Below, in pieces: positions 6,548 through 12,019 of a stretch of 64,000 bases of DNA. Positions within the stretch are counted from its first letter, which is position 1, and every line of letters begins with the position of its first letter. The DNA is taken from positions 1 through 64,000 of the forward strand of contig NZ_PYGJ01000006.1 of assembly GCF_003014475.1 (NCBI RefSeq). Direction: 5' to 3'. Below the pieces are notes generated by a model that was given only the letters and a program-made list of their open reading frames with translations, searched no databases and was not told the DNA's origin. Origin of the DNA: Shimia abyssi (GTDB lineage: Bacteria > Pseudomonadota > Alphaproteobacteria > Rhodobacterales > Rhodobacteraceae). The translations under genes were made by a program, and so were the position numbers.

Positions 6548-6548
<1 letters not shown>

Positions 6549-7696
6549 TGACACCTGCTGCACGTGTGCAAACCGCAATTGAAGTGCTGGATGAGATTTT
6601 GTCAGGCACCCCTGCCGAAAAGGCTTTGACGGGATGGGCACGGCGCAGTCGGTTTGCCGGTTCCAAGGATCGCGCGGCAGTACGAGATCACGTGTATGAC
6701 GGCCTGAGGCGGCGCAATTCAGCCTCGTTTCTGGGGGGCGATCTGAGCGGGCGCGGCATTATGTTGGGCATACTGCGTCAGGATGGCGCGGATTTGGACG
6801 CACTGTTTTCTGGTCAGGGATACGGACCAGCCGCTTTGAGTGTCGCTGAACAGATTGTCCCGTCGGGGGACGTGCCCTTGGATATCCCGGAGTGGCTGGT
6901 GCCACGGCTTCGCGATAGTATGGGCGGCGATTTTGAAACCGGCATTGCGGCAATGAGCGCGCGAGCTCCGGTTGCCTTGCGGGTTAATCTTCAAAAAACC
7001 GATCGTGACAGCGCACGTCGTGCATTGCTTGAGGACGGGATTGAAACCTATTCGCCTACACAAGCCAGTACCGCATTGATTGCCACCACCGGCGCGCGCA
7101 AAGTTGCGCAGTCCAAGACTTACCAGACTGGATTGGTGGAATTGCAGGATGTCTCAAGCCAAATGGCAATTGAGGCAATACCACTGCGTAGTGATATGAA
7201 AGTGCTGGACTATTGCGCAGGTGGCGGCGGCAAGGTGCTTGGCATGGCCGGCCGGGCGACAGCGCAATATTTTGCGTGTGACGCGATTGAAGCGCGGCTG
7301 CGGGATCTGCCCAATCGCGCCGAGCGCGCCGGTGCTGATATTCAGGTGATTACCGATCCGGCGCAACATGCGCCCTATGATCTGGTGTTTTGTGACGTGC
7401 CTTGTTCGGGCAGTGGCACATGGCGGAGAACGCCAGACGCAAAGTGGCGGTTCACCAAAGCTGATCTTGATGAGCTGACTCAGGTGCAGGCTGGTATTCT
7501 GTTTGATGCGGCGCAGTTGGTGGCACCGGGGGGGGTGTTGGTTTATGCGACATGCTCACTTCTTGATGACGAAAATATCCTTCAAATTCAAAAATTTATG
7601 GATGTAAGTTCAGGTGTGAAATTGGTGTCGACAGAGCAAATCCCCTTGGGTCAGGAAACCGATGGGTTTTGTTTTGCCGTCCTTGAGGTGGCGTGA
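6548..7696 (+). CDS. RsmB/NOP-type RNA 5-methylcytosine methyltransferase
   Basis: A 382-residue SAM-dependent RNA methyltransferase. The SAM motif VLDYCAGGGG is near residue 220. The two catalytic cysteines of this family are present: Cys286 in DVPCSGSG and Cys336 in ATCSLL. The N-terminal 130 residues resemble the NusB-like/RNA-binding region of RsmB. In E. coli RsmB modifies 16S rRNA C967, and that target is likely but unproven here. It is translationally coupled to guaB. Confidence 0.9.
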
Positions 7697-7749: not shown

Positions 7750-7797
7750 TAGTTTCCATGTACTTTGGCTGTATCGGCCTGTTCAGGGGAACCACAC

Positions 7798-10050
7798 GTG
7801 TCGTCTTTGGATTCTGAGCTTGAAACTGCATCACTGCCCTTGAGCCGTGGGCGCAGCGGCGCGCGCCATTGGGCAACCCTGGTCGGATTGTTTGTGGTTT
7901 CTGGTTTGTCGGTTTACGTTGTTTCGCACTCTGGAAATCTGGGCTTTTTGTTCTTGGTATTGCTTGCTACGGCGGGATGGGTTGGAGCGGCTCTGGGTGT
8001 GCGGTATCTGCCTGCACTGTTTACATCCGCAAGCGCGCGTAAGGTATTGATTCCATTTCTGGAAGATCGAGATCAAACGCTATTCCTAACACGGCGCGAC
8101 GGGACGTTGGTTCACTTCAGTAAAGGCGCGCAGGACAGTTTTCCAAGCGCGGTCGCTGAGCAATCTTTGTCGCTGGCGCTGGGTTATACTTATGCAAGTG
8201 CTGAAGAACTTGTGTCCGAAGTTTCGTCTGATTTGCGGACACAACCTCGGATAAGGCGGGATATTCCGCTGTTGGCTGGAAATTTGAATTTGACTGTGTC
8301 CCGTGTTGGGGGGCGATACCTGCTTTGGGAGTTTGAGACTCAGATATTGGCCCAAGCATCTGAGCAACCAGGTGAGAAAACGCGTATTCCAATGATGACA
8401 GCGCAGGAAGACGGTCAAATTCTATTCATGAACAGCGCTGCGCGGGGTCTATTAGGTGAAAGTCGGACCCACTTGAGCGATGTGATTGCGGTGCCGGGAA
8501 CAAATGCAGGCGATGCAGTTACCGTGACGGCACGCGAAGGTGAATGCCAATGCTTGGTTGCCGAATACGAAACCGACTCTGGCATGCGCGAGATTTACCT
8601 CCTGCAAACTGAAGTGCCGACAGTACGCGACGGGGCTGTGCAGTTTGATGAGCTGCCAGTTGCATTACTGAAAATACGAGTGGATGGCAGCGTTGAATTG
8701 GCCAACAATGCGGCGCGTATATTGTTGAATTGCAAAGACGTTTCGAACGTCGTGGTGAGCGATTTGATGGAAGGGTTGGGCCGGTCGATCCGGGACTGGA
8801 TGAGCGAAGCGGCCACGGGTTTGGGCGTGAATCAGACCGAATTTTTGCGCCTAAAACGCGAAGACAAGGAAGTTTATGTTCAAGTGAGCCTGAACCGGGT
8901 TGTCGAAGGGGGCGCGCCGTCTTTGATTGCCGTGCTGAGCGATGCAACGGAGTTAAAAACTCTTGAGGCGCAGTTTGTCCAAAGCCAGAAAATGCAGGCG
9001 ATTGGCCAACTTGCGGGCGGTGTGGCGCATGACTTTAACAATCTGCTTACGGCCATTTCGGGGCATTGTGACTTGTTACTTTTGCGGCATGATCAGGGCG
9101 ATCCTGATTTCGGTGACTTGGTACAGATCAACCAAAATGCCAACCGCGCCGCGGCATTGGTTGGGCAGTTACTGGCCTTCTCGCGTAAGCAGAACTTGCG
9201 CCCGGAAGTGCTCGATTTGCGTAATACTCTAGCAGACCTGACACACTTGTTGAACCGGCTGGTGGGCGAGAGAGTGTCACTGGTGCTGAACAATGATCCG
9301 GTTCTTCCTTCGATTCGTGCGGACAAGCGGCAGTTAGAGCAGGTGCTGATGAATCTGGTGGTCAATGCGCGTGATGCCATGCCCGATGGCGGAGAGATTC
9401 GCATCCAGACTGAAGATATAGAACTGACCGAGCCGCTGGAGCGAGATCGTGTTGTTGTCGCGACCGGGCGTTATGTATCGGTTCGAGTTTCTGATGACGG
9501 CATCGGCATTCCATCCGACAAACTACAAAAAGTGTTTGAGCCGTTTTTTACGACCAAGCGTACAGGCGAAGGAACCGGCTTGGGTCTATCGACGGCATAT
9601 GGGATCGTTAAGCAAACTGGTGGATATATTTTTGTGGACAGCACTCTGGGTGTGGGCACTGTTTTCACATTGATGTTTCCTGTGCATGAGCAGACCATTC
9701 TCGTGACCGACGATTCTGTAGTAGAACACCCGAAGGTGCCCGCGGTTGATGATCAGGATGGCGTAATTCTGTTGGTTGAAGATGAAGCGCCGGTCAGGTC
9801 ATTCGCATCGCGCGCGTTGCGGCTCAAGGGATTAACCGTGCTCGAAGCGGCCTCGGGAGAGGAAGCGCTGGAGATCCTGGCTGGCGAGGATGCGCCTCAT
9901 ATCGACCTATTTTTGACTGACGTGATTATGCCGAATCTGGATGGACCAAGTTGGGTTCGCGTCGCGCGCGAAACATATCCAACAATCCCGGTGATCTTTG
10001 TATCCGGCTATGCCAAGGACAGTTTCGCAGACGATCAGGCGCGAATTTAG
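7798..10050 (+). CDS. cckA: Hybrid histidine kinase CckA, truncated by an in-frame stop
   Basis: The frame encodes two N-terminal membrane segments (about residues 22-70), PAS-like regions, a DHp domain with GGVAHDFNN (phosphorylated His411), a HATPase domain ([22 protein letters not shown]) and a receiver with phospho-acceptor Asp708. The GTG at 7798 follows AGGGGA by seven bases and is preferred to the TTG at 7765. Codon 751 (10048-10050) is TAG. Beyond it the same frame continues as HSSFLPKPFSLSDL, the normal CckA C-terminus containing the conserved receiver Lys, to a TAG at 10126-10128. The stop removes strand 5's LPKPF and helix 5. CckA controls the ChpT-CtrA phosphorelay (motility, gene-transfer agents, cell cycle), so the truncation may cripple phosphotransfer. 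A sequencing error is possible. Confidence 0.9.
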
Positions 10051-10128
10051 CACTCCAGTTTTCTACCCAAACCGTTTTCGCTGTCTGATTTGACTGACGC
10101 TGTTCAAATCAATCTGGCAGCGCGATAG
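10051..10128 (+). pseudogene. cckA: Detached C-terminal end of the cckA receiver domain
   Basis: 25 codons in frame with the upstream kinase, separated from it by one amber codon. They contain FLPKPFSLSDL, the conserved Lys-Pro turn and last helix of the response receiver. There is no start codon or ribosome binding site of its own. Its good conservation suggests that the stop is recent, is read through, or is a base error. Confidence 0.7.
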
Positions 10129-10147: not shown

Positions 10148-10744
10148 TCAAGAAATACTGTTGTAAAGGTCGAATTCTGCGCTGAATTTGCGCTGGTATT
10201 TTTTCAGCGTTTCAGGCGAAAGGTCTAGTTGCGTTCGCGGAGAAGCATTGCGACGTTCCAGGCTGACTTTTTGTTTGATCCGATCTTGCAGAAAGTTGAG
10301 CAAACGAGATTGATCTTCGTAGCGAAAAAGATGGTTAATCCGAGTTCCGTTTGGGCGCGGTTCCAGAAATTTTGCTTGGCTGCCGACATTGGCAAATGCA
10401 GGTTTGTCGCCGCGCATGTAGGCATTCACAAACTCATCAAAACTCACATTGTGAGTGGAGTTGGGATGACCTTGCATAAAATTTCGTTGTCGATATCGAT
10501 ACCAGCTCGCCAGCCAACTGATTGGTTCGCGCATGACCGCAAGTGTTTCCATGTCTTCGACTTTGCAGGCGCGTTCAAACATTGGGCGAAAAAAGCGATT
10601 ATACCGATAGAGTGGCGCGTGTTTCAGCTCTGGTGGATGTGAAATGACCATGTCCGCATGTGGCGCAAATGCCCCTTCTATGGCGGTGGTTCCGGTCTTG
10701 GGAACGGAGAGAAAGACAAGTCGCGCATTCCAAAAAACCAGCAT
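10148..10744 (-). CDS. Sulfotransferase family protein
   Basis: A 198-residue protein with the PAPS-binding signature near its start (SVPKTGTTAIEGAF, the 5'-phosphosulfate loop) and a second motif (REPISWLASWYRYR) matching the 3'-phosphate-binding region. It would transfer sulfate from PAPS to an unknown acceptor. The ATG at 10744 is six bases after AAGGAG; the TTG two codons earlier sits directly on it. It is single, with its start facing the recA promoter region. The 198 residues are short for the family but include both key motifs. Confidence 0.8.
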   Translation of the reverse strand: MLVFWNARLVFLSVPKTGTTAIEGAFAPHADMVISHPPELKHAPLYRYNRFFRPMFERACKVEDMETLAVMREPISWLASWYRYRQRNFMQGHPNSTHNVSFDEFVNAYMRGDKPAFANVGSQAKFLEPRPNGTRINHLFRYEDQSRLLNFLQDRIKQKVSLERRNASPRTQLDLSPETLKKYQRKFSAEFDLYNSIS

Positions 10745-10872
10745 CTTCAACTCCTTGCAAGGCCCAGGGCAGGGTGTATTGAATTTGTAAACTAGTCCTT
10801 AACCTTCAGGTGAAAAAGTAGTTTCGTAAAATTCTTGTTGAAATGTTCTCCTTTTGATCTCATATAGTTTTA

Positions 10873-10887: not shown

Positions 10888-10939
10888 ACAGGCAGTGATT
10901 GCCGCCCCGACGTGGGTGTGGAATAAGGAAGCAAGCGAA

Positions 10940-12019
10940 ATGGCAACGGCAGATCTTTTGACGATGAGCAGCAAATCTACACCCGATAAACAAAAGGCGC
11001 TCGACAGCGCTCTGGCCCAGATCGAACGGCAGTTCGGCAAGGGGTCAATTATGAAACTTGGCGCAGACAATCCGGCGCAAGAGATAGAGTCGACGTCGAC
11101 CGGGTCGTTGAGCCTGGATATTGCGTTGGGGATTGGCGGATTGCCAAAAGGTCGGATTATTGAGATTTACGGCCCCGAAAGCTCTGGCAAGACAACTCTG
11201 ACGCTGCACTGCATTGCGGAAGAGCAGAAAAAGGGCGGCGTATGTGCGTTTGTTGACGCGGAACACGCACTGGACCCTCAGTATGCCAAGAAACTGGGCG
11301 TGGATTTGGATGAGTTGCTGATTTCGCAGCCCGATACTGGCGAGCAGGCGCTGGAGATTACCGATACGCTGGTGCGGTCCGGTGCGGTTAACATGGTGGT
11401 TGTCGATTCGGTTGCAGCGCTGACGCCAAAATCCGAACTTGAAGGCGACATGGGTGACAGCAGCGTTGGTGTGCAGGCCCGCCTGATGAGCCAGGCGATG
11501 CGTAAACTGACCGGTTCAATCGCGCGCAGCAACTGTATGGTTATCTTTATCAACCAGATCAGGATGAAGATTGGCGTGATGTTTGGCAGCCCGGAGACGA
11601 CAACCGGTGGTAACGCGTTGAAATTCTACAGCTCAGTCCGGTTGGATATCCGCCGCATTGGCGCGGTCAAGGATCGTGACGAAATTGTGGGCAACGCGAC
11701 CCGTGTAAAAGTTGTAAAGAATAAGGTGGCGCCGCCCTTTAAGCAGGTGGAATTTGACATCATGTATGGCGAGGGCATCTCAAAAACCGGCGAATTGCTG
11801 GACCTTGGGGTCAAGGCCGGTGTGGTGGCGAAATCTGGCTCTTGGTTCAGCTATGGTGATGAGCGGATTGGGCAGGGGCGTGAAAACGCCAAGACGTTTT
11901 TGACCGAGAACAAACGCATTGCGTTGGAGATTGAGGATAAGATCCGGGCAGCGCACGGGCTTGATTTCGATATGCCGCCACCTGATGCGGATGATGACGA
12001 CGCGCTAGTCGAAGGATGA
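10940..12019 (+). CDS. recA: Recombinase RecA
   Basis: A 359-residue DNA strand-exchange ATPase that also triggers LexA self-cleavage. The Walker [10 protein letters not shown] is at residues 78-86, VVVDSVAAL serves as Walker B, and the L2-region [10 protein letters not shown] and acidic C-terminal tail are typical. The ATG at 10940 is eight bases after AAGGAAG; longer in-frame starts lack support. The LexA box upstream implies SOS induction. The next gene follows by six bases. Confidence 0.98.

Follow-up and report, generated by a model that had tools for sequence, protein, structure and literature searches.

An amber codon within the cckA receiver of Shimia abyssi and the probable decay of its CckA–ChpT–CtrA and gene transfer agent module

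In the CckA–ChpT–CtrA relay, phosphate passes from the histidine of CckA through the aspartate of its receiver to ChpT (excerpts of PMC9981736). In the Rhodobacterales the core of what CtrA targets consists of flagellar and c-di-GMP genes, and the gene transfer agent (GTA) cluster is termed a conserved CtrA target in the sections of PMC12363192 drawn upon here. The corresponding portion of a report on Ruegeria KLH11 describes cckA null mutants with wild-type-like growth and no flagella (PMC3692519). Pseudogenised GTA clusters have in turn been proposed, in passages of a further study, to mark recent non-producer lineages (PMC10883770).

The window considered here is the whole stretch of 64,000 nucleotides that was analysed (G000:C6:1-64000), from a genome of 4.73 Mb in 48 contigs with a listed completeness of 100 and contamination of 0.05. 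Its plus strand carries cckA as a truncated open frame at 7765–10050, of 761 codons if counted from TTG 7765, the start more likely being GTG 7798. Pfam recognises the HisKA and HATPase_c domains and the initial portion of the receiver, and a PAS match falls below its cut-off. The frame closes at a TAG (10048–10050, +) that lies inside the receiver domain, ahead of the last strand. Past this codon the same frame holds 25 further sense codons (10051–10125, +), reading HSSFLPKPFSLSDLTDAVQINLAAR, before a second TAG at 10126–10128 (+), close to the normal end of the family. This remnant comprises the last receiver strand, with the conserved lysine encoded at 10069–10071, and the last helix; the names of strands and helices are those of the known receiver fold. 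Such a continuation of the conserved frame beyond the first TAG, as far as roughly the usual terminus of the family, is not a matter of chance, and the interruption of cckA is confirmed in the assembled sequence. Upstream lies an open frame for an RsmB/F-type 16S rRNA methyltransferase (6548–7696, +; Pfam), and downstream a convergent gene of 200 amino acids (10148–10750, −), which has no Pfam family at E 0.001, is followed by an open recA (10895–12019, +; Pfam). By eye, a similar end to that of the convergent gene seems to follow cckA in several relatives.

There is good reason to regard the interrupted gene as cckA itself. Its HisKA and HATPase_c core and CckA-type sequence place it among the CckA kinases, and two CckA models are its best matches in NCBIfam, both under their full-length cut-offs. 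A match at this level is single in the genome, the locus matching itself at 100 per cent and the next sequence reaching 37 per cent identity over 264 residues. What the truncated product lacks is a complete C-terminal receiver, with the last strand, the conserved lysine and the last helix lying behind the TAG, and its match to the Pfam Response_reg profile covers only positions 1–85 of 111. When the TAG is read through as an unspecified residue (X), the C-terminal end of the protein aligns to residues 1–118 of a solved receiver of 120 residues (6tne), and the portion behind the TAG corresponds to the FLPKP strand, with its Lys-Pro pair, and the last helix. The initial annotation had claimed that an amber codon cuts CckA before the receiver lysine and takes with it the last strand and last helix of the domain, and on both points the coordinates, the profile match and the structural alignment bear it out.

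The stop appears to be private to this genome. In all 24 genus relatives found by search cckA is open, and the column of the TAG, located by counting from the KPFSL motif, holds a sense codon in each (Glu in 13, Ala in four, Thr in three, Asp in two, and Ser and Pro in one apiece), so that the possibility of the same stop being shared by close relatives is ruled out for those compared. Across a wider set of 105 CckA loci, made up of this one, the 24 genus relatives and 80 named records, some of which are from the same genomes as the unnamed ones (99 of the 105 are distinct over their last 500 residues), a sense codon stands at the column in 104 and a stop in this locus alone. It had also been stated that the frame resumes after the TAG and ends exactly where homologues end; the frame does run on to a second TAG, and the proteins of genus relatives end, by eye, from one residue before to about 25 residues after its place. 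The best-scoring relative, G007 (65 per cent identity in CckA), differs at two of 21 residues before the stop and at none of 11 after it, and the tail then diverges more. A lysine after the SGYA motif near the stop seemed at first unique to this sequence and was set aside when it proved to be present in two of the 105.

Both of the outputs most closely associated with the relay are affected in the same genome. FliF and FlhA, the only two flagellar genes sought, have no match. Each of the two is found in 21 of 25 genomes, the set being identical, and the four without them are this genome, G002, G003 and G023. The GTA head–tail cluster lies on G000:C3 and is co-linear with those of G018 and G021. 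Its genes carry g-numbers that we assigned ourselves on the presumed RcGTA gene order, only the TIM domain being matched to a family and the other names following from order. Three of these genes contain internal stops, namely g3 at codon 16 (L200:7286, TAA), g14 (L200:15337, TGA) and g15 within the TIM domain (L200:17655, TAA), and at each site the five relatives that were compared have sense codons. The TIM part of g15 is detected in 23 of 25 genomes and bears an internal stop only in this one, where the gene has also lost its normal stop and its frame runs past the usual end. Of the features of a functional RcGTA-type element, the ordered head–tail cluster is present, and not all of the structural genes are open. 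In G007 a second GTA TIM-domain copy is found at G007:C7:35316-36689, as two matches within a frame of 1484 codons, in addition to a full copy at G007:C11.

Further down the relay, chpT has no internal stop and shares 54 per cent identity with its G018 counterpart, and the HPTransfase domain of ChpT (PF10090) is present at E 2.7e-26. CtrA has its Trans_reg_C domain and the CtrA signature motifs, the latter being those we presume to be diagnostic, and its body is 92 per cent identical to that of G018. The stop of ctrA has been lost, adding 35 residues past the C-terminal alanine, whereas in 24 of 24 relatives a stop directly follows that alanine. With this change the lesions are spread over three contigs (C3, C6 and C18). 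Alteration or removal of the last CtrA residues stabilises the protein in Caulobacter, and in Sinorhizobium their perturbation raises CtrA, as described in parts of PMC4433202.

The background of nonsense codons was counted as well. Two early attempts were discarded: a first count put internal stops in 28 of 349 aligned genes, and in 35 of 346 when run the other way round, figures inflated by antisense frames and misplaced starts, and a second filter still left 19 and 53 stops. In the survey that was retained, 780 kb of one relative (G018:C8) was compared with 884 kb of this genome, about 19 per cent of it, and a third-position filter gave 335 non-overlapping genes (119,864 codons) with 32 stop-bearing rows. 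These were sorted by hand, and four were accepted as internal nonsense codons, those of cckA, g3, g14 and g15. The four all fall among 13 surveyed genes of the module (10 GTA cluster genes with cckA, chpT and ctrA) and none among the other 322, giving a hypergeometric P of ~1.4e-6 for a module that was picked after the first lesions had been seen, though it was known from the literature. In the rows set aside, the stop preceded a recognisable or probable start, fell in an N-terminal part with gaps or poor alignment, or lay a few codons from the end, or else the alignment itself was short or of low identity; the alignments were inspected for most of them, and four (G018C8 genes 129974, 571807, 709362 and 732051) were judged by position alone. 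For g14 the identity over the 15 residues before the stop is 0.07, and this lesion was accepted through the six-genome alignment. The reverse direction (321 genes) gave more stop rows, partly from antisense frames, and no claim is made from it on G018.

Frames with stops also occur outside the surveyed ~19 per cent, at G000:C12:88970 and in two kinase matches; matches of this sort elsewhere in the genome (three kinase, one regulator) were viewed roughly, and their alignments may overrun gene ends. The first of these frames, at G000:C12:88970-89185, is a Trans_reg_C fragment interrupted by an in-frame TAG; a longer TPR-like frame lies close by, and the locus may hold a broken CadC-like regulator. 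A C-terminal extension of more than 12 codons relative to G018 was found in only three of 326 genes, those of a repeat protein, g15 and ctrA. The longest, of 147 codons (G000:C1:33839-34300), was rejected as a lesion and belongs to the repeat protein, which is of variable length. That locus (G000:C1:33300-34400) is a frame of 309 codons composed mostly of repeats around MFTSGL, and the copy in G018 has 154 residues and fewer repeats.

Substitution rates bear on the age of these lesions. Among 25 genomes only G024 (1.53) has a longer CckA terminal branch than this one (0.73), with G018 (0.71) and G001 (0.70) close behind, and its GuaB branch is ordinary (0.035) in the tree of the same 25, giving a CckA/GuaB ratio of about 21 here as against 24 in G001, 14 in G018 and 7 in G007. 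Pairwise NG86 counts were made in six genomes for cckA, guaB and seven genes of the GTA, and in five for rsmB. The ratios of cckA and of the GTA genes lie mostly inside the range of pairs that do not include this genome, with single pairs in g2, g12 and g13 slightly over it. There is no clear elevation indicative of relaxed selection in the CckA/GuaB trees or the NG86 counts, which with dS often saturated are a weak test. Odd residues in CckA were likewise considered as a sign of old decay and dismissed, the protein deviating at 1, 1 and 3 near-invariant columns under three thresholds and thereby ranking 6, 16 and 8 of 99, with ties, which is no outlier. Because no clear relaxation of rate is seen, the lesions look recent and decay, if any, only begun; they are probably recent relative to the split from the compared relatives, a bound that is loose given that synonymous sites are often saturated.

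Taken together, these results probably mean that cckA broke recently, in a lineage that appears to have no flagellum and in which the CckA–ChpT–CtrA and GTA module is decaying. A CckA that lacks a complete receiver should be unable to move phosphate from its histidine to the receiver aspartate and on to ChpT, and CtrA would then escape relay control. If, as it appears, there is no flagellum left to control and the GTA probably cannot be assembled, few of the relay's known tasks remain, and its loss may have been cheap; an end to lysis driven by the GTA could even have been advantageous. The flagellum may have been lost first and the relay and GTA later, an order suggested by the complete absence of FliF and FlhA as against single-codon lesions in the relay and GTA genes. 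The initial annotation had argued that loss of the relay would be tolerable in Rhodobacterales, where it serves motility and GTA, and the absence of FliF and FlhA, the stops in g3, g14 and g15 and the loss of the ctrA stop are all in keeping with this. What emerges looks like a known regulatory module that has recently collapsed in nature, with no new kind of system needed. Counting against decay, chpT is open and the CtrA body is well conserved, so that two parts of the relay still look selected.

A simple rule of 'no output, no kinase' does not follow. G003 is without matches to FliF and FlhA, G002 lacks FliF, FlhA and the capsid and has only a partial TIM match, and in both cckA is open and CtrA ends in Ala. 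G023 is without matches to FliF, FlhA, the GTA capsid and TIM, and keeps an open cckA, a ChpT domain and a CtrA that ends in Ala. Since these three genomes keep an open cckA and an Ala-ended CtrA, loss of output alone does not remove CckA, and in these species other work must fall to CtrA, a point that leaves room for a CtrA here that has become relay-independent instead of useless.

Within a decaying module, the driving force may have been selection against GTA production, whose producers lyse. Selection of this kind, as opposed to mere disuse, is possible but doubtful. Three genes of the GTA cluster and the relay are affected together with no accepted lesion outside the module among the surveyed genes, and such an origin has been proposed for pseudogenised GTA clusters in the consulted part of PMC10883770. 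However, selection and relaxed constraint are indistinguishable on the basis of a single genome, a lone lesion in the GTA would have sufficed, and the flagellar loss is left unexplained.

A second alternative is that the relay has been rewired instead of plainly decaying, CtrA being stable, independent of the relay and still serving targets beyond the flagellum and GTA. Without the CckA receiver, CtrA would take no relay phosphate, and the loss of its stop would bury the C-terminal turnover signal. This would explain how the CtrA body could stay at 92 per cent identity with its G018 counterpart when stops have entered the kinase and the GTA genes; it is nonetheless judged unlikely.

It might also be supposed that the TAG is a sequencing or assembly error and that cckA is intact in the organism, and indeed the genome is a draft in 48 contigs in which one wrong base would suffice. 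Yet errors that strike a single pathway on three contigs, and leave the other 322 surveyed genes without an accepted lesion, would form an odd pattern, and the listed completeness of 100 and contamination of 0.05 also speak against this explanation, which we regard as very unlikely. Equally hard to credit is a truncated CckA that is still usefully active and maintained in shortened form. It would retain HisKA, HATPase_c and receiver positions 1–85 of 111, and the few changes at near-invariant columns (1, 1 and 3; ranks 6, 16 and 8 of 99, ties included) would be in keeping with a gene under maintenance, but a receiver that lacks its last strand, lysine and helix would, judging from the 6tne alignment, be unlikely to fold, and none of the 104 other loci ends at this point.

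Readthrough of the TAG, by a suppressor tRNA or a leaky context, would yield a full-length CckA and is highly improbable. Conservation is good in the codons that follow the stop, as readthrough would have it, but it would be no different after a recent stop. No CTA anticodon occurs among the 39 tRNAs found, in a list that is incomplete and from which expected members such as tRNA-Tyr are missing; of 15 suppressor-like pattern matches ARAGORN calls a tRNA in one, and that is Arg(tct). Moreover, cckA has a TAG at its normal end too, and the GTA lesions (TAA, TGA and TAA) are beyond the reach of one TAG suppressor. Genome-wide recoding of TAG is unlikely given that same terminal TAG and the TAA and TGA codons of the GTA genes.

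Pseudogenised GTA clusters were known already and have been read as possible non-producer lineages (in excerpts of PMC10883770); here the regulators above the cluster are also damaged, before any clear change in substitution rates. Open-access PMC text, a weak guide to what is published, yielded no account of a naturally truncated cckA coupled to GTA decay. Sister strains could thus reveal in what order and for what reason the GTA and the relay were lost, distinguishing relaxed constraint after loss of motility from selection against lysis, and the strain would show which roles of CtrA remain without its kinase.

The locus may finally be set against the systems it most resembles. With the Rhodobacterales phosphorelay of Ruegeria KLH11, Phaeobacter inhibens and Dinoroseobacter shibae it shares a single-copy cckA, the kinase core, ChpT and CtrA, and it differs in a receiver that is cut, a CtrA that is extended, the unmatched FliF and FlhA and the stops in the GTA genes. 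The relay defect predicted here is that of laboratory cckA null mutants, as these are presented in portions of PMC3692519 and PMC12363192; in contrast to such mutants, it occurs here in a genome as sequenced and is combined with lesions in the outputs. Like the stabilised alleles ctrADD and ctrA-delta-3 (excerpts of PMC4433202), this ctrA encodes a protein whose C-terminal residues, which CtrA turnover requires in Caulobacter, no longer form its end, but by way of a natural extension of 35 residues and not by substitution or deletion, and a comparable effect on stability may follow. The head–tail cluster, with its nonsense codons, resembles the pseudogenised RcGTA-type clusters treated in part of PMC10883770, and is set apart from them by a genome in which cckA and ctrA are affected as well.
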